Positions 900 through 22,591 of a stretch of DNA of 22,591 nucleotides are shown in pieces. This DNA comes from a virus. Below the pieces are notes generated by a model. That model did not search any database. It was not told the origin of the DNA and saw nothing but the letters and a program-made list of their open reading frames with translations. The translations under genes were made by a program, and so were the position numbers. How positions within the stretch are numbered: position 1 is the first letter of the stretch; every line of letters starts with the position of its first letter. The stretch is taken from the IMG/VR virus record IMGVR_UViG_3300032893_000285, positions 1 to 22,591 of that record. One strand, 5' to 3'.

Positions 900-3500
900 T
901 TAGTTCCCCTGGCCGGATTGAACCGGCGACGACGACACCCCAGCGGACTGAGGCCGCATCTCCGCGACCTTCGCGGCGGTCTCCGCCGACTGCCGGTCGA
1001 TGTCGGTTTGGTGACCTGCAAGGATGAGGTTACCGATCTGCAACGCTTGGTCGACATCGGTTTTGTGATGCTGATGCGCGGCCTTCGCGAGTTCGACGTT
1101 GTGCTCGGCTTCTTTCTGAGCGTTGTCGAACTTCGTCTGCTCTTGTTGGTGCTGGAGCCGGACGAGGTCGGGGATAAGCCGAAGCAGATCCGGCGTGATC
1201 GTCTGCCCGAACATCGCTTGCTGTTGCGCGGCAGCGGTCTCGGGATCAGCGAGGATCTCTTCGATGTCGTGGATCGCCGGGCGGAAGGCTTCAAGGATAC
1301 GTTGCAGCAGTTTCGATTGGTTGATATACGGCAACCACGCTTGCGGGTTTTGACCGATGAGGTTCATGAACTGCACGAGGGATTGCAGCATCTCGGCTTT
1401 TTCAAGCTGACCGGTGATGCCCCGAACGTGGACTTTGTAATCGCCCTGGATGAGTTCCATGATCTCTTCCCGGGTCATCCCCGCGAGGACCCCGGCTTCA
1501 AGCCCGAGGATCGACGCGACGCGTGGGTCGTTCGCGGTGTCGACGAATTGGAAGATCAAATCCACTGCCATCATGACGATGGGGGCGAGGAAGTTTTGCT
1601 CGATATCCGCAGCCATCGACCCGAAGAACGTCTGCTGGTTCTGCTGCATGTACTGGGTTTCCGTGGCAGACTGCGCTCCGCGGTAGCGGGGGACGGCCTG
1701 CTGGAGTTGGGAGATCAACGACCCTTCCTGGTGGGCGACGTTGAGTTCCGCGGTGAGCTGGGTCGAACCCGGCGAGATGTCGTTCATCTCGATGGGTTTC
1801 ATGCCCTCCGCACCGGGGTACTGCAGGTTCCGCCGGAAGATCTTCCCCGGCGTAAGCCCGGTGTCGAAGTCCTCTGGGTTCTCATACGCATCCGGCGCGA
1901 CTTCGAAGATCGGCATCAGGCGGAACATCAGCGTGTCCACCGACATATTCGCCAGACGGTTCATCGCTTTGTCTATCTGCCGAACCATCTCCACGATACC
2001 AACACCTTCAGTCCGGAACGGTAACGCCACCGGTGAAAATCCACAGTAGGGAGGCTTTCGGTGCCAAAACTGATTCTTACCAGCCAGAAGGGTAACAGTA
2101 TCGTTAGCGACAAGCACATGGCCGTAGCGTTCCTTCACCTCACCATCGAGGACTATCGGCCCGTAGAATTCGGTGAGTTTCACGACGCCGGTGTCGGGGG
2201 TCGGGCCGTTGGTCGTGCGAGGCATCTCACCCCAACGTAGCCAGGATTGTTTCGTCTGCTCCTCGATCTTCATCGGCTGGATGGATCGCACGAGTTCGAC
2301 GTCGAACACGCCTTCGGCGGCCATCTGGAGGAGTTCCCATTTCGGGATTTCGATCTCTTCGATGGTGCCCGTCCACGCGTTCATCTTCGACCCAGGGAGC
2401 CAGTAAAAGTTATATGGGTCGACCGCACGGAGGAACAGCTTGCCTTCAAGGATCTCTTCCCGCACGAGCTGACGGTTTTGCGTGCCTGGGGTGGGAGCCA
2501 TCGGGGAACCGACGCCATCCGGTGGGCCACCTGCCCGTCCCGGTCCTGGCATATTCATCGGATTGATGAACTCATTCGGTAGCGCGGTTGGGTACATCCT
2601 CGCGTCTTGTTGGATCAGAGCCTTCGGGAGCTGTCCAAGGGGTTGGGTGGTTCGGGCCGATGCCGGGGGTTCGACAGGCACACCTGCACCCAAGGGTTGT
2701 TGTTCAGGTGGTTCATTCGCTTGTCCAGATCCGCCAACTCCTCCGGATGGGGTACCAGCCTGAGGCCCCGCTGGGGGCGGAACCGACGTAGCATGCGAGA
2801 CAGATGTGACATCTCGTCCAGAGCTGTCTTCAAGTCCGAAGGATTCAGAAGGTTGTGCGACACCTTTGATGTCTCCCGGGGTTTGGTTGAGTTGGAGGTA
2901 GCCCTGCGATCCGGTGCCGGTGCGGTCGGTTACGCCCGCGAGTCCGAGGGGGATTTTCTCCACCTTCGTCACAATCCGTGGGACGAGTCCCCACCAGAGC
3001 TTCACGATCCCCGCGCCCATGATGAAACCGGTTTCAAGGGCTTCGGAGAACTCGAACAAGAACCGAGCTTTCTCCAGCATGACCTCCGCGAGGTGGGTCA
3101 TCTGCTCGGAGCGTCGGACCGCCACGAGGTCGTTCGGGTTCTCCGACTCAAGATCGAACGGTTTCTTCGATGCGGACAAGAACTGTTTGATTACATTCGT
3201 CGCTTGCTTTACCGACGAGAACGACTTCGGGAGTGCGATCTTGGACTGCCAGTCTTCCTTATCCGACCAGTCTTCTTGACATCGGTAGATCTGCCAGCAT
3301 TCGTTCCACACGGATAGCTTCTCGTAACGGTACATCCGAAGCTGGTTCCTCCACGAGATAACGTACTGACGTACCTTCTCGTCATACATCCGCTTCTCAC
3401 GGTCGTCGTCGGTCTCGAACGTCCGGTGGGCTTTTGACTGGAGTTCGTCGGTGACGAATTCAGCGGGGGTGGAGGAGTAGAACGATGCTACGTAGGACAT
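900..3500 (-). CDS. Portal protein (head-tail connector)
   Basis: 866 residues. Portals form the dodecameric ring at one capsid vertex through which DNA is packed. Recognisable stretches: the N-terminal helical region with WNECWQIYRCQEDWSDKEDW, then ALPKSFSSVKQATNVIKQF; the segment LFLRAVDPYNFYWLPG; and GVGIVEMVRQIDKAMNRL followed by MSVDTLMFRLMPIF, which is typical of portal stem and wing regions of the P22-like or large podovirus type. Residues about 190-342 are a Pro/Gly/Gln-rich, probably disordered insertion, and this makes the protein longer than most portals. Residues about 770-850 are Gln/Glu/Ala/Lys-rich helix, possibly a barrel-like or coiled-coil tail. The start overlaps the previous stop (TAATG). 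The portal identity is well supported by context with terminase genes. Confidence 0.88.
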   Translation of the reverse strand: MSYVASFYSSTPAEFVTDELQSKAHRTFETDDDREKRMYDEKVRQYVISWRNQLRMYRYEKLSVWNECWQIYRCQEDWSDKEDWQSKIALPKSFSSVKQATNVIKQFLSASKKPFDLESENPNDLVAVRRSEQMTHLAEVMLEKARFLFEFSEALETGFIMGAGIVKLWWGLVPRIVTKVEKIPLGLAGVTDRTGTGSQGYLQLNQTPGDIKGVAQPSESFGLEDSSGRDVTSVSHATSVPPPAGPQAGTPSGGVGGSGQANEPPEQQPLGAGVPVEPPASARTTQPLGQLPKALIQQDARMYPTALPNEFINPMNMPGPGRAGGPPDGVGSPMAPTPGTQNRQLVREEILEGKLFLRAVDPYNFYWLPGSKMNAWTGTIEEIEIPKWELLQMAAEGVFDVELVRSIQPMKIEEQTKQSWLRWGEMPRTTNGPTPDTGVVKLTEFYGPIVLDGEVKERYGHVLVANDTVTLLAGKNQFWHRKPPYCGFSPVALPFRTEGVGIVEMVRQIDKAMNRLANMSVDTLMFRLMPIFEVAPDAYENPEDFDTGLTPGKIFRRNLQYPGAEGMKPIEMNDISPGSTQLTAELNVAHQEGSLISQLQQAVPRYRGAQSATETQYMQQNQQTFFGSMAADIEQNFLAPIVMMAVDLIFQFVDTANDPRVASILGLEAGVLAGMTREEIMELIQGDYKVHVRGITGQLEKAEMLQSLVQFMNLIGQNPQAWLPYINQSKLLQRILEAFRPAIHDIEEILADPETAAAQQQAMFGQTITPDLLRLIPDLVRLQHQQEQTKFDNAQKEAEHNVELAKAAHQHHKTDVDQALQIGNLILAGHQTDIDRQSAETAAKVAEMRPQSAGVSSSPVQSGQGN

Positions 3501-5534: not shown

Positions 5535-6383
5535 TTACTTCAACCACCGTCGGTACATCATCGGGTCTTTGCCCATCCGGGGGCGGTTGGACGGGCGGCT
5601 ATTCATGAGGTACTTCGTCGCGTCTAGCGCGTGGTTCCGGACATCTTCGATGTTCTCACGGTACGTCTCGGTCAGGATCTCCTTATCAGACTGCCCCGCA
5701 TACACCGCGTTCTCGAACTCGTTGATGGTATTCGGGCAGCACGACCGTATCCGAAATGTCGGATCGTCCGGGTTCGACCAATGCCGCCGCATCATCTCGA
5801 CCCACGTGGTCTCGTTCACATTCCCCGCCACGAGCTTTCGGACCCCGTGCTCGGCGAAGAGATCCGCGAGGGTCACAAACTGCCCGAGGCGGTTGGTTCG
5901 GGTCTTCACCTGTACGATGGTCGGATCACACGCGATGTACTTCATCTGCCCGTAGTACGGCGAGGACAGGATCTGCTGCGCGAAGTACTCGATGTTCCGA
6001 CAGGGTTCGTAGATCTCGTGGACGAGGACCAGCACCCCTTCGTCGATGGTGAAGGTGAGGAACGCCGACGGATTCCGCTGCCCGAAGTCAAACCCACCCC
6101 AGAATGGCTGGAGCGGTCCGTAGTCGGGGTATGGCTCCGGGATGACGATCTTATCCCGCATCGTCGCCATCTCGGGGAAGACGCGCTGGCCGTACAGCGC
6201 GGTGTAGTCGATCTCGTATTCCTTCGCCCACCGCGCCGGGGTCATCCCCGCACGGGCCTCGGCTTTCCACGTGTCGGAACGTTTCGCCGGGTCGGCGAGG
6301 TAGTGCAGGGTCACGACCGCGAACTTGTTCGTGTCGTTTTTGACGATCTTTAGCCCAGTGGATTCATGAAGGAGTTCAGGCAT
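5535..6383 (-). CDS. terL: Large terminase, C-terminal nuclease half
   Basis: 282 residues carrying the RNase H-like headful nuclease. Key residues visible: WGGFDFGQRNPSAFL (first catalytic Asp), MKYIACDPTIV (second Asp) and VRNHALDATKYLM (third Asp), in the order and spacing normal for TerL. The N-terminal part (GLKIVKNDTNKFAVVTLHYLAD..) is the strand-rich linker that normally follows ATPase motif III. No ATPase motifs occur in this gene; they are in 8250-9095, about 1.87 kb upstream. The combined length, 281 + 282 residues, equals a normal full TerL. The ATG at 6383 has no evident Shine-Dalgarno and starts two bases after the zinc-ribbon stop, so it is either translationally coupled or a second exon. 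Its frame also stays open upstream. Confidence 0.9.
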   Translation of the reverse strand: MPELLHESTGLKIVKNDTNKFAVVTLHYLADPAKRSDTWKAEARAGMTPARWAKEYEIDYTALYGQRVFPEMATMRDKIVIPEPYPDYGPLQPFWGGFDFGQRNPSAFLTFTIDEGVLVLVHEIYEPCRNIEYFAQQILSSPYYGQMKYIACDPTIVQVKTRTNRLGQFVTLADLFAEHGVRKLVAGNVNETTWVEMMRRHWSNPDDPTFRIRSCCPNTINEFENAVYAGQSDKEILTETYRENIEDVRNHALDATKYLMNSRPSNRPRMGKDPMMYRRWLK

Positions 6384-6385
6384 AG

Positions 6386-6619
6386 CTACTGTCGGTAGAT
6401 GTACTTCAGATACTTCGCCACGTCCACCCCGCGTTCCCCACACTGCGGGCATCGGATGCGGAGCGGGTTTGTCTTCGCTGGGTACGCCGCCTCGAACTCA
6501 TACTCACACGTAACACATCGTAACACAGCCACGTGGTGGTCATACAAATCCACCTCGTCCATGTGCCGGTCCGGCGGGGGTGGGAGCTTCGTCCAATGAG
6601 TCGGGATCGGTTCGTCCAT
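6386..6619 (-). CDS. Zinc-ribbon protein inside the split terminase
   Basis: 77 residues. The ATG overlaps the methyltransferase stop (TGATG). Two CxxC knuckles (RCVTCEYEFEA and RIRCPQCGERG) about 22 residues apart form a typical zinc ribbon. The N-terminus is Pro-rich and acidic (PTHWTKLPPPPDRHMDE). Such small ribbons occur in phages as nucleic-acid-binding or adaptor proteins. It lies last in the four-gene block between the two terminase halves, and the preceding methyltransferase ends in a similar ribbon, so the two may work together. The exact role is unknown. Confidence 0.75.
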   Translation of the reverse strand: MDEPIPTHWTKLPPPPDRHMDEVDLYDHHVAVLRCVTCEYEFEAAYPAKTNPLRIRCPQCGERGVDVAKYLKYIYRQ

Positions 6620-7344
6620 CACGCCACCACGTTCGAGGTGATCTCCACCATCGTCCCGCAGTCCCTACACCACGCGTGGAAGTGTTTGTTTTTCATAATC
6701 CCTGTGACGTTCAGCGCCATCCTCCGGCACTTCGGACAGAGGAACGCTTCGAGGAGTTCGCGGGAGATGAACGGGATGATCGGCGGATCCTTCTGCATGA
6801 TCGACTCCACCGCGGCCTCTGCCGGAGACGTGTCGGTCTGGTCCACCGTCATCGGCAGCGTGTAGTCGTATCCGGTATCGATGGTCCGAAGGGAAATCAG
6901 CTTGTGGTTCGGTAGCTCTCTCAGCAGGTCCACAAGATTCCTCGACACTGGTGACCACGATTCGGACTTATGTGCGGTGTAGGTGAACTTATGGTCGGTG
7001 TTGAAGACCGACGGCCAGATCCCCTGCTCGTACAAATCCTCCTCCGGCACGACGGTGATCATAAACCCACCTGGCTTCAACACCCGCCATTGGTTCCGCA
7101 AGGCCAGCCCGGGGTCGTACGCGTGTTCGAGGAAGTGGGATGATACAACAAGGTCCATGCTTGCCGAATCAACTCCGGTGAGAGTAACTCCGTCTCCGTC
7201 AGCTTGATCGTACCCTCTGGCGGTGGGGTGAATAAGATCGTTCCCACATCCGACATCGAGGATCTTTGCTCCGTCGGTGAAGTACCGGTCCCAGATTCCT
7301 TCCCGTTTCCATCGTTCACGTAGTTTACTCGCTTCCTTTGACAT
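6619..7344 (-). CDS. Class I SAM-dependent methyltransferase with C-terminal zinc ribbon
   Basis: 241 residues, start chosen at the ATG preceded by GGGAGGG. Rossmann motif I is KILDVGCGND (residues about 27-36), and the acidic post-I residue is in RGYDQADGDG. Motifs IV-V appear as SMDLVVSSHFLEHAYDPGLA and RVLKPGGFMITVVPEEDLYE, a pattern typical of small-molecule, sugar or lipid methyltransferases of the Methyltransf_11 type. A C-terminal pair of knuckles (LCPKCRRM and WCRDCGTM) adds a zinc ribbon. It overlaps the nucleotidyltransferase gene by 20 bp, so methylation of a nucleotide-sugar or of the glycan made from it is a reasonable guess. A DNA or protein substrate is not excluded. Confidence 0.85.
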   Translation of the reverse strand: MSKEASKLRERWKREGIWDRYFTDGAKILDVGCGNDLIHPTARGYDQADGDGVTLTGVDSASMDLVVSSHFLEHAYDPGLALRNQWRVLKPGGFMITVVPEEDLYEQGIWPSVFNTDHKFTYTAHKSESWSPVSRNLVDLLRELPNHKLISLRTIDTGYDYTLPMTVDQTDTSPAEAAVESIMQKDPPIIPFISRELLEAFLCPKCRRMALNVTGIMKNKHFHAWCRDCGTMVEITSNVVA

Positions 7345-7855
7345 ATCCCTCCCGGATTCGTTCGATGATCCTCGACGTCCGTGTCGGACCGTTCCGGACA
7401 AAACACTTCTTCCACTTCGGGAACTTCGACGTCGTCCCGCGGTGGTCCCAGCCTTGGACCCGCACAGCGGGGTTGAGGTGGGTCAACAACTCCCGCATAT
7501 CCTCATCGGTCTCGATCTCGACGATGGCATCGACGGGCATGTAGTTCAACGTCACCGCGCGTTCGATGAAGGACTGGATCGGGCGACCCGGACCTTTGCG
7601 GGCACAGCGTGCATCCGAGTCGAGGGCGACCACCACCGACCTTGCCCGCTTCCGCGCCGCGAAGATCACCTTCATATGCCCGGCGTGGAGGATGTCGAAC
7701 GCGCCGTTCACCAACGCCACTGGACCTGGCAGGTCCAGCAACGCCTCGTCGGTCGTGCGATACCACGGGACCTCTTCGTGTTCATGCTCCCGCGCGAGAT
7801 AGTAGTTCGTTACCCTTGATGGGATTCGGGTGGGTGTTATTGTTGATGTGGGCAT
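7325..7855 (-). CDS. HldE/RfaE C-domain-like sugar-phosphate nucleotidyltransferase
   Basis: 176 residues. The signature LVNGAFDILHAGHMKVIFAA is the GxFDxxHxGH nucleotide-binding motif of the cytidylyltransferase fold. DSDARCARKGPGRPIQSFIE closely resembles the GxGRPI substrate loop of bacterial HldE C-domains, and RTSRIIERI matches the end motif. In HldE this domain adenylylates D-glycero-beta-D-manno-heptose 1-phosphate to ADP-heptose. The specificity here may differ. About 40 N-terminal residues precede the fold. The ATG at 7855 overlaps the HNH stop. The matching kinase domain is a separate gene at 9507-10334, so the two HldE activities are on two polypeptides, separated by the terminase ATPase half. 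Confidence 0.85.
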   Translation of the reverse strand: MPTSTITPTRIPSRVTNYYLAREHEHEEVPWYRTTDEALLDLPGPVALVNGAFDILHAGHMKVIFAARKRARSVVVALDSDARCARKGPGRPIQSFIERAVTLNYMPVDAIVEIETDEDMRELLTHLNPAVRVQGWDHRGTTSKFPKWKKCFVRNGPTRTSRIIERIREGYVKGSE

Positions 7856-8208
7856 ACTCCACCGTTTCGTTCTCGACCGATATTGCAGTTGGCGCACAAG
7901 ACCTGATAGCCGGGCGGGTAACCGAGATTCTTTAGTTTAATATAGAACGGCTTCCCGCCTTTCGTATTTGTGTCTCGCCGTTCTTGCGCACCGTTCTGGT
8001 TAACATGGTCGAGCTGTAAAAATAAAAACTCACGCTCCCCGCAACAAGCACACCAGCAACCACCATACGCTTCAAACGTCTCTCGTTTGATTCTCTGACG
8101 ATACTCTGTATAGAATCGATTGTGTTCCTCCAGACATTTATCACACTTTGACTTACGTAGATCTTGTCTAGGAAGTGTGCAAATCGTACAAAGTCCTGCG
8201 AGTTTCAA
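7837..8208 (-). CDS. HNH homing-type endonuclease
   Basis: 123 residues from a TTG start preceded by GGAAGG. The core is GGCWCACCGERE, then FLQLDHVNQNG (the H of the DH pair), then YQVLCANCNIGRERNGG, i.e. HNH with two CxxC zinc knuckles, the layout of free-standing or intron-borne phage HNH nucleases. It sits directly after the broken-off terminase ATPase half, which is the expected position for the element that caused the break. By hand count its DNA is about 45% GC against about 60% in nearby genes, which suggests recent transfer. The frame is open for 19 codons above the TTG, reaching into the last terminase codons, so an upstream non-ATG start is possible. Confidence 0.88.
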   Translation of the reverse strand: MKLAGLCTICTLPRQDLRKSKCDKCLEEHNRFYTEYRQRIKRETFEAYGGCWCACCGEREFLFLQLDHVNQNGAQERRDTNTKGGKPFYIKLKNLGYPPGYQVLCANCNIGRERNGGVCPHQQ

Positions 8209-8249
8209 TTCCTTCCGTCGTTGTTTTTGTTCTTCAGGTGTGTGAGGTA

Positions 8250-9095
8250 TCAGAGTTGTACATCTCTACAACAGGACATGAAGAAGCCGGGATTCGCACT
8301 CGAAACTGCTGTATAACGCCCACCGGCTTGTATCGCTGGCTTGATTGCCATAAAAGAGGCTTCAGCTTCTACTTGGAAAGCGGCCTCGTCGACAAACATT
8401 CCGCTAGGATGGTATTGACGGATTTGGTCTGGGCCTGCGGGGAAGCCGAGGATTGTTGAGACTAGCGAAGGCACACGAAGTATCCCCGAACGAGTTTGTC
8501 CTGACGCATAGGAAGCTGGGTGGAGAGATTTAAGAAAGTTTGGTTGGTTATCGAAAATAAAGAACGCTCGTTCGACAAGATCTGCGGTTTTGGTAGAGTC
8601 ATCGGACTGAAATATATTCTCCCTGTTCTTGTGAAACAACGTATCCCACGTGTACAACGTTACGACGAGCCACGTCACCATCATATCCCGGGACTTCTCG
8701 ATGAACACGATCTTCTGCCGTAGCCATGTCTTGATGATGGGTTCGATGTAGGGGAACAGCGTAAATGGCCGGACCGTATCCAGCGGCTCGAAGTACCCGT
8801 CGATCTCTGGATCCGAGTCGGTCTCGATGTCGTGGTAGATCTTCAGGTGGGTCTGCTTCACGTCGAAGGTCCTGCCCGCCCCATCGTTGCAGATCCTACA
8901 CGCGAAGAGCTGCTTCGGATCCCGGGTGTGGACGTACGGGATCAGATGCCGCTTCGCATCCAGCCAGTACATCACGTCATCCGCGCACTTCGACCACTCC
9001 GACTGCCCGAGCTGCGCGTAGAGTTGCTCGCGTTCCTTCGGTTTGCATCGGGAGAGGTACCCGAGGAGATCCTCAGTTAGCTCTATCGTCGACAT
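8250..9095 (-). CDS. terL: Large terminase, N-terminal ATPase half
   Basis: 281 residues. The Walker A-like motif is IVFIEKSRDMMVTW, the deviant P-loop of phage terminases. Walker B is SGMFVDEAAF with the catalytic Glu, and the coupling motif III is TAVSSANPGFF near the C-terminus. Eight residues after NPGFF the frame stops, exactly where the linker to the nuclease domain should begin; that domain starts at 6383. The N-terminal 100 residues contain CRICNDGAGRTFDVKQTHLK, a possible zinc or DNA-contact element. The ATG lies within the last codons of the cupin gene. The packaging motor would need both halves to associate or be spliced together. Confidence 0.9.
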   Translation of the reverse strand: MSTIELTEDLLGYLSRCKPKEREQLYAQLGQSEWSKCADDVMYWLDAKRHLIPYVHTRDPKQLFACRICNDGAGRTFDVKQTHLKIYHDIETDSDPEIDGYFEPLDTVRPFTLFPYIEPIIKTWLRQKIVFIEKSRDMMVTWLVVTLYTWDTLFHKNRENIFQSDDSTKTADLVERAFFIFDNQPNFLKSLHPASYASGQTRSGILRVPSLVSTILGFPAGPDQIRQYHPSGMFVDEAAFQVEAEASFMAIKPAIQAGGRYTAVSSANPGFFMSCCRDVQL

Positions 9096-9510
9096 CGTTG
9101 AACGACTCGAACTCCTCGGTCGTGTCTCGGTCCGGCACTGGTCCGGACTCTTCCAACCGAGTCACATCCGTATCCGAATGCGGGGTGGAGATCTCCAACA
9201 GCAGCGACCCTTCCGGGGTCATACTCCAGAACCTATGCGGGGTATGCGGGGGGAGATGCAGACTATCACGTCTCCACCCGAGGAGGATCGTGTCGTACCG
9301 TTTCTCTCCGACGTAATATTCGACTCGCGTAAGGCCGTCCAGGGCCACGAAGGTTTCGTCTTTAACGCTATGGTAATGCAACGAACAACGCATCCCGGGG
9401 GTGATCCAGAGTAGCTTCCCGCAGTACTTCTCATTGTTGGTTAGTACCTCCTCCAGCCCCCACTTCTTCGCGATGTACTCGCGGTCTTCCATTCCGGTCT
9501 CGTAACTCAT
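9073..9510 (-). CDS. Cupin, mannose-6-phosphate isomerase type II-like
   Basis: 145 residues, ATG overlapping the kinase stop (ATGA). Cupin motif 1 is seen as SLHYHSVKDETFVALDG (His-x-His and Glu metal ligands), and motif 2 as LHLPPHTPHRF with the last His. The opening WGLEEVLTNNEKYCGKLLWI and the motif 1 context resemble the C-terminal cupin of GDP-mannose pyrophosphorylase/phosphomannose isomerase and related sugar-phosphate isomerases. Directly following a sugar kinase, it probably acts on a phosphorylated or nucleotide sugar. The exact reaction cannot be deduced. The Asp/Glu-rich C-terminal tail is probably disordered. Confidence 0.8.
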   Translation of the reverse strand: MSYETGMEDREYIAKKWGLEEVLTNNEKYCGKLLWITPGMRCSLHYHSVKDETFVALDGLTRVEYYVGEKRYDTILLGWRRDSLHLPPHTPHRFWSMTPEGSLLLEISTPHSDTDVTRLEESGPVPDRDTTEEFESFNDVDDRAN

Positions 9511-10334
9511 GCCCCAAGCTCCTTCATACGTTCCTCGATCTCTCGTAGGCTCACGACGGATGTGCCCGGCTTCTCTACGGCTAGTCCTGCCGCGAGGTTC
9601 GCGAACCACAGAGGATTGTGACGCCCTGATGTAACAGCGAAAGCGTAAGCAGCAACCACGACATCACCAGCACCGCAAACACTACCAACGGATCGAGCAA
9701 AGGTCGGATACTCGATGATAGGCTTCCCATACTCACGTTCCTCCACCCCCTCCTCGGACTTCTTCAGCACCACGCTTGGGCACAGGTCGTACCGGACCCG
9801 ATCCTTCTCATACTCCTGCCGGTTTGGGAAGTACACCCACCGGGACGTGAACCCCTGCGGGTGGTCGTACGCGAAGTGCTCCGGACCATGCTTCGTGTCC
9901 ACGAATGTCGGAAGGTTCTGGTCGATCACCCATCGCGAGACCTTTCCGTCCACCGATCCCTTTCCGTAGTCGGACACGACGATACCGTCCGGCTGCCATC
10001 GCTCAACCGCGGCCTGCAACGCCTCGACCGGTATCGGACTCACGGAGTCCCACTCATCCCACCGCGCAAGCTGGGTCGTTCCAACCACGAGCCGATGTTT
10101 CTGTGGGATTTCCTTCCCGTTGGCCCACACCCGCCAGCCGTGCAGCAGCAATGCTTCCGCCCCGAGACTCGCGAGATTCGCCGCCACATTCGCCGCCCCA
10201 CCCGGGCTATGCTTCGTCTCGGTGATCTTCACCACCGGGATCGGAGCTTCCGGGCTGAGCCGGACCGCCGTCCCAACGTGGTACAGATCCTTCATCGCGT
10301 CGCCAATGACGAGGATCTTAGGCACCGTCGTCAT
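9507..10334 (-). CDS. PfkB-family sugar kinase, HldE/RfaE N-domain-like
   Basis: 275 residues. LSPEAPIPVVKITETKHSPG followed by GGAANVAANLASLGAEALLL closely resembles the substrate-binding start of HldE kinase domains, and VCGAGDVVVAAYAFAVTSG is the PfkB signature 2 with the catalytic Asp of GAGD. DGIVVSDYGKGSV and FVDTKHGPEHF also fit. In HldE this domain phosphorylates D-glycero-beta-D-manno-heptose 7-phosphate at O-1. It is somewhat shorter than the usual about 315 residues, mainly in the middle. ATG is preceded by GGAG at 7 bases. Together with the nucleotidyltransferase at 7325-7855 it can form an activated-sugar pathway. GmhA, GmhB or HldD functions are not seen here. Confidence 0.88.
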   Translation of the reverse strand: MTTVPKILVIGDAMKDLYHVGTAVRLSPEAPIPVVKITETKHSPGGAANVAANLASLGAEALLLHGWRVWANGKEIPQKHRLVVGTTQLARWDEWDSVSPIPVEALQAAVERWQPDGIVVSDYGKGSVDGKVSRWVIDQNLPTFVDTKHGPEHFAYDHPQGFTSRWVYFPNRQEYEKDRVRYDLCPSVVLKKSEEGVEEREYGKPIIEYPTFARSVGSVCGAGDVVVAAYAFAVTSGRHNPLWFANLAAGLAVEKPGTSVVSLREIEERMKELGA

Positions 10335-10435: not shown

Positions 10436-10741
10436 CTACTTCGGCGCCTCAACTTCCCTTCGCCAGTCCATCGGTACATCCTTCGCCCCCTGCTGCCACG
10501 AGGCGGTCTTTCGACCCTCGTACCGCAGGTGTAGCGGTTCCAGCTCCCCGTTCGGGGCGACGGGTACATCCCGCCACTCATGCTCCGACACCGCTTCGAG
10601 CATGACCCACCGGGTCACGTACGGCGACACTCCCGCTGCGACTAGCTCCGCGTCGAGCGGGACTCGGTTCGCGTTGTCTTGAAAGTAGTGGACGCAGAGC
10701 TTCAGCAGGCTGTTAGCGTCGAACTCGATTCGCTTCTGCAT
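10436..10741 (-). CDS. Hypothetical protein
   Basis: 101 residues. The ATG overlaps the previous stop (TGATG). The N-terminal half is helical (FDANSLLKLCVHYFQDNANR, then LDAELVAAGVS), and the second half reads WRDVPVAPNGELEPLHLRYEG with several Trp and charged residues. There are no metal-binding or nucleotide-binding motifs. It is conserved-looking in composition and well packed in the operon, so it is probably genuine. The function is unknown. Confidence 0.72.
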   Translation of the reverse strand: MQKRIEFDANSLLKLCVHYFQDNANRVPLDAELVAAGVSPYVTRWVMLEAVSEHEWRDVPVAPNGELEPLHLRYEGRKTASWQQGAKDVPMDWRREVEAPK

Positions 10742-10959
10742 CAGACCGTAACCACTCTCTGGATATCAAACGTCACCCTCACCGGGGTGTCATCCTTCCA
10801 GCTCGACGACTCCGCCATGATCGCGAACATCCCGCGCTCGGAGGGTTTCACGAGCAGACTCACTGGCATCGCATCCGCTGGTATCGACCCTTCCTGTCGG
10901 GTGTAGTCCTTTAGCAGTTCCATGATCGTATCGATGGGGATGATGATTCGGCGTTTCAC
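10741..10959 (-). CDS. Hypothetical small protein (GTG start)
   Basis: 72 residues from a GTG that overlaps the stop of the 21-residue membrane peptide gene (GTGA). A longer frame upstream would run through that gene and the next, so it is rejected as the start. The protein begins MKRRIIIPIDTIMELLKDY, a strand then an amphipathic helix, and continues with strands SLLVKPSERGMFAIMAESSS and VRVTFDIQRVV. It is a small alpha/beta fold of unknown family. Confidence 0.65.
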   Translation of the reverse strand: MKRRIIIPIDTIMELLKDYTRQEGSIPADAMPVSLLVKPSERGMFAIMAESSSWKDDTPVRVTFDIQRVVTV

Positions 10960-11021
10960 TTCGACTTCCCAAGTAAGAACCCCACCGCAAAGATCAATAC
11001 CAACAACGCAATCGATTCCAT
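10956..11021 (-). CDS. 21-residue membrane mini-protein
   Basis: Starts at an ATG that overlaps the previous stop (TAATG) and has a strong ribosome-binding site (AGGAGGG) seven bases or so upstream. The peptide is a two-residue polar head (ME), a single hydrophobic helix SIALLVLIFAVGFLLG, and a short basic end (KSK). That is one membrane helix with a positive cytoplasmic tail. Its stop overlaps the GTG of the next gene. The good Shine-Dalgarno and tight packing at both ends argue that this tiny gene is translated. The function is unknown, possibly a membrane regulator or toxin-like or lysis-related peptide. Confidence 0.65.
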   Translation of the reverse strand: MESIALLVLIFAVGFLLGKSK

Positions 11022-11182
11022 TACTTCCCTCCTTTGTATTTCCCCGGGAACTTCTTGTGGTCCGGGTGCCACCCATGCTTCACCGCTTGGGCCACTCGTT
11101 CGAAATTGTCCCGGGCTTTCTCGGATTTGAACTTCCTCACCTCCCCGGAGGACATGCGAAGTTTGTCTTTGCCGACCTTCAT
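11021..11182 (-). CDS. Small basic protein
   Basis: 53 residues, ATG overlapping the preceding stop (ATGA) and stop overlapping the next ATG (TAATG). The sequence is highly charged and Lys-rich: VRKFKSEKARDNFERVAQAV followed by KHGWHPDHKKFPGKYKG. One amphipathic helix with a basic tail suggests nucleic-acid or anionic-surface binding. Similar short Lys-rich proteins are common in phage genomes without known function. Confidence 0.68.
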   Translation of the reverse strand: MKVGKDKLRMSSGEVRKFKSEKARDNFERVAQAVKHGWHPDHKKFPGKYKGGK

Positions 11183-18482: not shown

Positions 18483-19769
18483 ATGATGGAAGAACAACAA
18501 CTGACGATTGAGAGGGTTCCGGTTGGGGCGGTGGTATGCTACACCCACGACGGAACGGAATGCGTCGGGTTCAAGTCCGGGGCGTACAACACGATTTTGG
18601 ATGAGAACGGGAAGTACGTGTACATGCTGAAGCACGAACATCCCGTCACGCTTGCACCGCCCGATACAAAACAATCGATCATCCGGAAGGTCGCGATGGA
18701 GGCGACGCCGGATCAGTCGCGGTGTGTGTGGAGGTCAACCAAACATGGCACTACGGTCGGTTCCGACCCGGAGATATTCGTGCTCGACGGGAACGGGGAT
18801 GTGCTTCCGGCGTTTCAGTATCTCCCGAAGAAGGACAAGGCGGTTGAGGTGATCCACAAACAATCCCCCTGCGGCACCGCGTTCTACGACGGGTTCCAAG
18901 CTGAGTTCACAGTCAGACCTTCATCGTGTCTCGGCCACACCGCGGATTATATTCGAGAAGGGTTACTCACGGTACTCAATGCTGCACGGGCTGTCGACCC
19001 CGCTGCAAAACTCTCCATCGCGTCGGTGGTGCCGATACCACAGAAGGTGATGGAAGCCACGCCGAAGGAACACTTCATCCTCGGATGTTCCCCGTCGTTG
19101 AATGTATACGGTGAAGGCTGTGCGGTACCGGAAGCGCCGGAGATGATACCGTATCGTTCTGCCGGGTGGCATATGCACTTTAGTACGGTCGGGTTGGAGA
19201 AATCCTTCCCCATCGAGCGTCGGGAAGAGTCGATCAAAATGCTTGATCGTATCATCGGTGTTGGGATGGTTCCCTTCGCGCAGTCGTTTGTCGACACCCG
19301 ACGGCGGGAGATGTATGGCCGCGCGGGGGAGTATCGCTACGGACGTACGATGGAATATCGTGTCCCGGAGGTCATCCTCGGTGCGCATCCGGCCACGTGG
19401 AACATGTGGTGGGATCTCGCCCGTCGCACGTGGTGGATGGGGTTGATGGGGTTAAGCTTTCTTTGGGAAGGTGACGACGGTGAAGTCCGTGAGGCGATTA
19501 ACGACTCGAATGTGAAACTCGCGGAGAAGATCATTCATCAGAATGAGGCGGTGTTTCGAAGGTTGATATATCTTCAATACAAGTCCGACACCATCACCGA
19601 TGCCACGATGTCGATGATCTTGAATGGGGTTGAATCCCGCGTGAAAGACCCGACGGATCTGTACAAGAACTGGCGGCTGGGGGAGGTGTATGGCGTTGGG
19701 GAGTTTCCCGGGTATGGTGGGAAATGGTTGAAGTGGGGAACGGAAAGTCTAAACAAGGAGTTGTTGTAA
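18483..19769 (+). CDS. Amidoligase, COOH-NH2 ligase type
   Basis: 428 residues. Motifs of the glutamine synthetase-fold COOH-NH2 ligases: VGSDPEIFVLDGNGDVLPA (G-x-D-P-E-x-F, metal/ATP site, about residues 92-110), YDGFQAEFTVRPS, ILGCSPSLNVYGEG, YRSAGWHMHFSTVG (R-x-A-G-x-H-x-H) and AGEYRYGRTMEYRVPE. Such enzymes, known from phiEco32-like phages, are predicted to form amide bonds between a carboxylate and an amine. About 85 extra N-terminal residues form a small separate domain. GGAGGG touches the first ATG, so the second ATG at 18486 may be the real start. The substrate is unknown. Confidence 0.85.
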   Translation: MMEEQQLTIERVPVGAVVCYTHDGTECVGFKSGAYNTILDENGKYVYMLKHEHPVTLAPPDTKQSIIRKVAMEATPDQSRCVWRSTKHGTTVGSDPEIFVLDGNGDVLPAFQYLPKKDKAVEVIHKQSPCGTAFYDGFQAEFTVRPSSCLGHTADYIREGLLTVLNAARAVDPAAKLSIASVVPIPQKVMEATPKEHFILGCSPSLNVYGEGCAVPEAPEMIPYRSAGWHMHFSTVGLEKSFPIERREESIKMLDRIIGVGMVPFAQSFVDTRRREMYGRAGEYRYGRTMEYRVPEVILGAHPATWNMWWDLARRTWWMGLMGLSFLWEGDDGEVREAINDSNVKLAEKIIHQNEAVFRRLIYLQYKSDTITDATMSMILNGVESRVKDPTDLYKNWRLGEVYGVGEFPGYGGKWLKWGTESLNKELL

Positions 19770-21133: not shown

Positions 21134-21784
21134 ATGGCTATCTACGATTACAAAACCGTTCGGCTCGCGTATGTATCCTACGAGGATATGCGAACCATCT
21201 GGCCGTATATGAACTACACCTCATATATGTTCGGGACGGTGTGGTACAACAAAACAGGCGAGAGACATCGAACACCAGCACCTGACATCTCACACACCTG
21301 CCAAATCTGGAGTGCGATGATGGGGGCGGCTATCGACCTAAAACGTTCAATCCGATATTCCAACGTCGTCGGACTCCGCCTACCAAAATACATCCGCGCG
21401 TGTCCTTTTGCCAATGGGACGTTGTATGGATTCCATCCCACCTTCATGTCTGGATTGAATCAGATCTGCACACTTGAAGATCGACTCCTCCATCAGCTTT
21501 GTGATGGACTGGATACGGATTTTCCAGACCGAGGCGGTACCGCCGACTCCCGTAGGATGTTCCTCGAGTTATTCGAAGGTGTTGCAAACCCAAATCCTCA
21601 GACGGAGTTCGTCCCGGGGGGATTGAATATGAATTTTATCAAACCCTTCATAGCCTCCATGGATCATATCAAACTCCTCCAACCCGCCGTAACCCGGCTT
21701 CTCACCAACATCGCGCGGTCTCGACATGTTTCGCCGGAATGGGCGGCGAAGAAACTCTTCTTGGAGAAATACTATGCCCGGTAA
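21134..21784 (+). CDS. Hypothetical protein between amidoligase genes
   Basis: 216 residues, ATG three bases after the previous stop. The N-terminal part is rich in Tyr and Met (YVSYEDMRTIWPYMNYTSYM), the middle reads GLRLPKYIRACPFANGTLYG, and the C-terminal half is helical (MFLELFEGVANPNP.., HIKLLQPAVTRLLTNIARSR). I could not match it to glutamine amidotransferase, papain-like or other partners usually found next to phage amidoligases. The stop overlaps the next ATG by 11 bp, so it belongs to the same translational unit. Confidence 0.72.
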   Translation: MAIYDYKTVRLAYVSYEDMRTIWPYMNYTSYMFGTVWYNKTGERHRTPAPDISHTCQIWSAMMGAAIDLKRSIRYSNVVGLRLPKYIRACPFANGTLYGFHPTFMSGLNQICTLEDRLLHQLCDGLDTDFPDRGGTADSRRMFLELFEGVANPNPQTEFVPGGLNMNFIKPFIASMDHIKLLQPAVTRLLTNIARSRHVSPEWAAKKLFLEKYYAR

Positions 21785-22591
21785 GACTTCGAAGAAGTTC
21801 TGTCAGTACTGTGCGGGGTACTACATCCAGCGCGGGGAAGTCCCACCACCTGACACCGCAGTCGAAGCGTGTACGACCTGTCACCTCTGTCGAAGCTGCG
21901 GATGTTGTTGTGCGAATTGCAAGTGTGGTAGTCGAGTGAACTCCCGTTCCACCGCGCAGTGGTGTCAGCACTGTCAATCCTGCCGTGGGTGTTGCTCCTG
22001 CCGGAAGATGCCGAAGTATCTTCCCCCGACGAAGCTTCGCGTTCGTCCGACAACGTTTCGATTCAACACACTCCCTCGGCTCCTCGGGTTGGAGATGGAA
22101 ATCGCAGAGTGGAAGACGCTTCACGAGCAGAACTTCAAATACCTGTCCTACACCGTCGCACATGACTGGTCGGTGAAGCCCTCCGGACAGGAGATGGTTA
22201 TCGATCCGCTTCATGGGGATAACTTCCTCACTGCGGTAATCGAACTCTGTGATGGACTACACCGACATGAATGTAAACTCAACCAAACCTGTGGGTTACA
22301 CGTCCACGTGAACGCATCCGATCTCAGTTACTGGGAGATGCGGCGAGTGCTTCGGATGTACGCCACACTTGAAGGCGAGATATACAATCATCTTATTCTA
22401 CCATACCGACGAACGGTTCCGACGGTAACGCACTATTGTCAGATGTTGACGGTACCCCACACGGAGTGTGCGAGGTGTGTGAGGTTTGATCAACAATACC
22501 CGAACGCGCGGACGCCGTCCCCGAATATCTGGAAGGTGCTGTCCCGGATGGATGCGGCGAAGACTACGAGCGAGTTGAAGCGGGAGTTGCT
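21774..22591 (+). CDS. Amidoligase_2-type enzyme with Cys-rich N-terminus (partial)
   Basis: At least 272 residues, cut by the window end. Residues about 9-80 hold some 20 Cys in CxxC, CxC and CCC patterns (FCQYCAGYY, ACTTCHLCRSCGCCCANCKC, WCQHCQSCRGCCSCRK), so several zinc ions could be bound. The amidoligase core follows: RLLGLEMEIAEW (G-x-E-x-E metal motif), DWSVKPSGQEMVIDPLHGDN (conserved Glu) and TCGLHVHVNASDL (G-x-H-x-H). A later pair CARCVRF may be another knuckle. Enzymes of this group are predicted ATP-dependent amide-bond formers; the zinc region may bind the target. GGAG precedes the ATG by nine bases. Confidence 0.85.
   Translation, partial: MPGKTSKKFCQYCAGYYIQRGEVPPPDTAVEACTTCHLCRSCGCCCANCKCGSRVNSRSTAQWCQHCQSCRGCCSCRKMPKYLPPTKLRVRPTTFRFNTLPRLLGLEMEIAEWKTLHEQNFKYLSYTVAHDWSVKPSGQEMVIDPLHGDNFLTAVIELCDGLHRHECKLNQTCGLHVHVNASDLSYWEMRRVLRMYATLEGEIYNHLILPYRRTVPTVTHYCQMLTVPHTECARCVRFDQQYPNARTPSPNIWKVLSRMDAAKTTSELKREL

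Follow-up and report, generated by a model that had tools for sequence, protein, structure and literature searches.

The large terminase subunit (TerL) is regarded as a one-chain protein universal among tailed viruses, a hallmark that serves both phylogeny and virus detection. In herpesviruses, the terminase ATPase and nuclease of UL15 are encoded in two exons with other genes between them, and the exons are spliced in the eukaryotic nucleus. TerL has been described as universal, with both domains present, in a paper that also reports minimal DNA polymerase III and RNA polymerase beta/beta' of jumbo phages as encoded by several genes each (PMC7824862). Introns or inteins are known in terL of Jug phages (PMC12363816), Bastillevirinae (PMC11878797), Campylobacter phage IBB_35 (PMC3322345) and Mic1 (PMC7156551). 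Our search of the open-access literature turned up no description of a stable two-gene TerL (subscription journals are mostly outside this coverage). A Thaumarchaeota paper with the phrase "encoded by separate genes" proved to concern primase domains, not TerL.

The window analysed here is a stretch of 22,591 nt (IMG/VR record IMGVR_UViG_3300032893_000285). In it, and in a large lineage of uncultured tailed viruses, the DNA-packaging motor is encoded as two genes, and in the window's branch unrelated sugar-modification genes lie between them. The first, TerL-N (8250-9095, minus strand), encodes 281 amino acids, predicted to form the ATP-binding (ASCE) core of a large terminase and to bear a C2H2-like zinc finger in its N-terminal part. 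We identified a P-loop-like motif (EKSRDMMVTW), a Walker B motif (MFVDEAAF) and motif III (AVSSANPG), soon after which the gene ends, as a sequence-only reading of this DNA had claimed (the stop codon is 13 residues past the motif III Asn). Of the three ATPase motifs listed in that reading, Walker B and motif III stand, but the P-loop lacks GK[ST]. It has the deviant form KSRxMxxxW, which is also found in the nearest intact TerL, L118. Although deviating from GK[ST], its KSR is invariant. PHROGs labels TerL-N "terminase large subunit", a profile built from its relatives matches T4 gp17 (E 2e-11), and an AlphaFold2 model (pLDDT 94) matches the gp17 ATPase domain (E 3e-10). TerL-N is thus a predicted P-loop ASCE ATPase of the TerL type, with Walker B and motif III.

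The zinc finger (C66, C69, H83 and H88, within TerL-N residues 66-88; window 8825-8910, minus strand) is invariant in the first ten TerL-N sequences of the clade in which the two genes are separated by a gap (the gap clade), and is absent from the neighbouring clade in which they are adjacent. GC3 of the last ~120 codons of TerL-N (window 8250-8615) is 0.38-0.53, versus 0.78-0.88 before. This sharp 3' drop occurs in 26 of 30 gap-clade loci and not in the adjacent-gene clade. One relative, L014 (8001-8859), has a frameshift around codon 235 of TerL-N, with an HNH gene next; this is either a sequencing error or a true inactivation.

The second gene, TerL-C (5535-6383, minus strand), encodes 282 amino acids from its own ATG, and is predicted to comprise the last part of the ATPase domain, which includes the lid, then the linker and an RNase H-like nuclease. 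All three nuclease Asp residues claimed earlier were found (D99, D153 and D254); D99 and D153 are invariant, and D254 nearly so, in TerL-C of the 48 lineages. PHROGs also labels this protein "terminase large subunit". A profile from its relatives matches the TerL of phage D6E (E 3e-7), and an AlphaFold2 model (pLDDT 89) matches the TerL nucleases of D6E, SPP1, P22 and G20c. Sequence and model together point to an RNase H-like nuclease with the three acidic residues of TerL. Neither TerL-N nor TerL-C is named by Pfam-A at E<=0.05. Some short PHROGs families (145-228 positions) under the "terminase large subunit" label match TerL-C, and their members may be intron-split genes or additional two-gene cases. 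Inteins occur within TerL-C of two relatives: at the third nuclease Asp motif in L024 (4059-5858; Intein_splicing) and at the first in L025 (1881-3728; LAGLIDADG_3, with intein-like ends judged by eye).

Alignments suggest that the break falls inside the ATPase domain, between motif III and the lid, and not at the hinge between ATPase and nuclease. TerL-N aligns up to gp17 residue 289, after which ~10 of its residues remain. The T4 ATPase-domain construct 2o0h extends ~70 residues beyond gp17 residue 289, and TerL-N ends ~60 residues short of the T4 ATPase-domain end. TerL-C residue 71 aligns with D6E residue 242, where the nuclease starts; in D6E TerL the linker spans 230-241 and the lid includes Y213, M216 and R224 (PMC5727402). 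From this collinear alignment, we infer that TerL-C residues 1 to ~60 are the end of the ATPase domain, including the lid. The sequence-only reading had TerL-C start at the ATPase-nuclease linker, but the T4 and D6E alignments indicate a start before the lid subdomain. Its division into an ATPase half and a nuclease half is likewise imprecise: TerL-C does hold the nuclease, but probably also the ATPase lid. The D6E lid touches the P-loop arginine, and in two packaging models reviewed with that structure lid movement transmits the energy of hydrolysis (PMC5727402). Thus, each chain should depend on the other, and TerL-N and TerL-C would have to pair to complete the ATPase.

We collected relatives from IMG/VR by tblastn and by profile search; these records are contigs from uncultured viruses and may be incomplete. 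Wherever a close relative has both TerL-N and TerL-C, the two genes are apart. We identified the gap arrangement in 33 non-redundant loci (gaps of 0.76-4.9 kb), in which the aligned halves are 42-71% identical to those of the window. The 30 loci complete enough for the tree form one clade (support 100/99). Four assemblies (L006, L007, L008 and L011) apparently recovered one and the same phage, each with this arrangement, and a further locus, L120 (JAGWFS010000009.1), lies on a contig from a genome bin in GTDB. Because these four assemblies agree and L120 comes from a genome bin, assembly error is excluded. The split that had been proposed from the window is therefore real: both genes are present at 5535-6383 and 8250-9095, and recurrence in 33 loci excludes chance or error in practice. 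L120 is binned with a Thaumarchaeota genome, and lysis-like peptidase genes occur in other clade members (L006); an archaeal host seems less likely than mis-binning of a bacterial phage.

Two TerL genes are also present in a neighbouring clade of 18 lineages and in L024-L026; in these, the genes mostly lie side by side or overlap. The junctions are ATGA or GTGA overlaps, TAATG, or genes a few nucleotides apart; larger gaps beside these forms occur in L026, L060 and L082. Every stop codon and every frame offset is represented, and the near-identical trio L076, L078 and L079 has three different offsets. Both domains in one polypeptide were thus not found in the gap loci or the adjacent-gene clade. 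The nearest intact TerL (L118/L119) is one ORF of 579 aa with both motif sets in the same order, and single-ORF forms occur only in L118, L119 and other outgroups. Both split clades are strongly supported. That one ancestral fission gave rise to both is likely rather than proven, because the sister relation of the two clades has support of 90/86 only and the intact outgroups are long branches. The two-gene state is old within the lineage. Neither the window record nor the gap-clade viral records of 43-75 kb, each with a single TerL-N, contain a canonical TerL elsewhere, which bears out the expectation of no third, intact terL. We identified no close cultured relatives in INPHARED or among plasmids, and the annotated distant matches examined have one-gene TerLs.

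Genes fill the 1,866-nt gap of the window almost completely, overlapping or nearly so, and leave only 43 nt of non-coding sequence. All are on the minus strand and are as previously described: an HNH endonuclease (phrog_2255; 7837-8208), which is an accessory mobile gene, a nucleotidyltransferase, more precisely an HldE/RfaE-type adenylyltransferase (7325-7840), a class I methyltransferase (Methyltransf_11; 6619-7344) and a small zinc-ribbon protein (6386-6622), whose stop is 2 nt ahead of the TerL-C start. The block was considered unusual, but it is not unique, as the same adenylyltransferase recurs in 27 of 33 gaps, which makes it the best-conserved gene there, and only the HNH gene is the exception. 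The six gaps without adenylyltransferase are one clade in the tree and contain other methyltransferases. In L009, the adenylyltransferase is kept beside a TylF-type methyltransferase. Further gap genes encode an M15-type peptidase (L006), a DNA methylase (L005) and an AAA+ protein (L115). An FkbM-type methyltransferase gene (Pfam) alone fills the 760-nt gap of L055, where 10 nt are non-coding. Gap coding coverage counts any ORF of at least 45 aa, which is generous, and the argument from non-coding space rests on the window and L055.

Directly upstream of TerL-N is a cupin gene (9094-9504, minus strand), whose open frame continues beyond the TerL-N start to a stop at 9073, and upstream of this is a PfkB-family kinase (HldE kinase-like; 9507-10334, minus strand). 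The kinase-like and adenylyltransferase-like genes resemble the two halves of HldE and flank the cupin gene and TerL-N, a gene order kept in many relatives. Two adjacent small genes (10436-10741 and 10741-11076) have mutually matching profiles, and 23 relatives keep them upstream of the kinase; the one tested matched no family. A Recombination endonuclease VII gene (PF02945; 11489-11941, minus strand) lies upstream of the sugar genes. Genes for a COOH-NH2 ligase-like protein (18483-19769) and an amidoligase (21726-22589) are on the plus strand, opposite to the TerL genes. Downstream of TerL-C is a large head-tail adaptor/portal-region gene (900-3500, minus strand), a position conserved in relatives. 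The TerL genes thus sit near the portal region, and a role in ATP-driven packaging at the portal is predicted.

The split terminase could be decayed or defective, with DNA packaged by another enzyme. The P-loop without canonical GK[ST] and the distance of up to 4.9 kb between the genes would fit this, but we consider it improbable. The intact relative L118 has the same deviant P-loop, the long viral records have no additional TerL, and the remaining motifs persist under strong purifying selection across 48 lineages, each catalytic residue being invariant or almost so. In TerL-N and TerL-C alike, dN is 0.06-0.36 while synonymous sites are near or at saturation. Pairwise TerL-N and TerL-C distances correlate (r 0.82 and 0.87; none of 2,000 permutations as high). 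Shared descent alone would yield this correlation, which shows that TerL-N and TerL-C travelled together.

Less probable still is that an HNH homing endonuclease invaded terL, brought other genes with it and so caused the split. The HNH gene does follow directly on the TerL-N stop, and base composition there is AT-rich. However, 30 of the 33 gaps have no HNH gene, the adjacent-gene clade is already split without one, and the GC3 drop is clade-wide rather than a co-conversion tract specific to the window, so co-conversion was rejected as the source of the AT-rich stretch. HNH is in 3 of the 33 gaps: homologues of the window's gene follow TerL-N only in L014 and L041, and others occupy nearby sites in five further loci. 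The HNH fold, together with patchy presence at differing sites, is that expected of an HNH homing endonuclease, and the gene is probably a late, recent mobile passenger and not the cause of the split.

Least credible of the three is that a group I or II intron, in cis or in trans, rejoins the TerL-N and TerL-C RNAs and that the gap holds intron-borne genes: phage terL is a known intron target (PMC12363816, PMC11878797, PMC3322345) and the window gap contains an HNH gene, but 30 of 33 gaps do not, Rfam searches returned no intron at the gathering threshold and none at E<=5, non-coding sequence is down to 43 nt (window) and 10 nt (L055), the protein termini facing the junction are not constant from one relative to the next, and overlapping stop and start codons in the adjacent-gene clade leave no room for an intron. 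Stop-codon readthrough or frameshifting is ruled out by the three stops and three frame offsets of the adjacent-gene clade. Because overlaps, all stops and all offsets occur in that clade, none of splicing, frameshift and readthrough is used there. Split-intein joining was also rejected, as intein halves are absent at the TerL-N end and the TerL-C start; neither protein of the window has an intein family match. In most relatives TerL-N ends a few residues from a CRD-like motif and TerL-C starts a few residues before PEILHE. The sequence-only reading had left a choice between two subunits and RNA splicing. Splicing fails on the missing Rfam intron, the near lack of non-coding room and the variable junction ends, and two subunits are strongly favoured by separate conserved genes with no rejoining signal.

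We therefore return to the two-subunit reading: with high probability, judged from these comparisons, TerL in this phage lineage is naturally bipartite, two genes whose products most likely form a non-covalent heteromer. We infer complex formation, a lid in trans and the history as follows. TerL-N, the ATP-binding core, would form the motor ring at the portal, and TerL-C would dock onto it, its first ~60 residues giving the ATPase lid and its remainder the nuclease that cuts the concatemer, such that hydrolysis in one chain moves the other. Fission of TerL would first have given adjacent, translationally coupled cistrons, the state retained in the neighbouring clade. Later, in the window's branch, other late genes (the HldE-type adenylyltransferase, methyltransferases and the zinc ribbon) most likely moved into the break. 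A point against the two-subunit reading is that the two genes, once apart, could have diverged in expression level. We give even chances to the further proposal of an obligate split ATPase, in which productive hydrolysis by TerL-N awaits the TerL-C lid in trans and the nuclease chain doubles as the motor's switch. If so, force crosses a non-covalent interface, and the ratio of nuclease to motor chains in the ring is not necessarily 1:1.

With TerL cut within the ATPase domain, such a lineage offers a natural experiment on how core hydrolysis moves the lid and nuclease, and bears on whether force transfer needs a covalent link. Pipelines that expect a single terL ORF would call such genomes broken.

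Among known systems, the jumbo phage polymerases are similar in that a usually one-chain enzyme is thought to reassemble from the products of separate genes, although the enzymes are different. UL15 is likewise a TerL homologue in two parts with unrelated genes between, but its parts are rejoined by nuclear splicing. Intron- or intein-split terL also has an interrupted frame, in some cases around an endonuclease gene, but is rejoined by RNA or protein splicing, whereas here the cistrons are separate and no such element occurs at the junction. Single-chain TerL (T4 gp17, and those of D6E, SPP1, P22 and G20c) shares the ATPase and nuclease folds, the motif order and the site upstream of the portal region. 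The difference is that here there are two genes and chains, apparently broken between motif III and the lid, with the deviant P-loop KSRxMxxxW.
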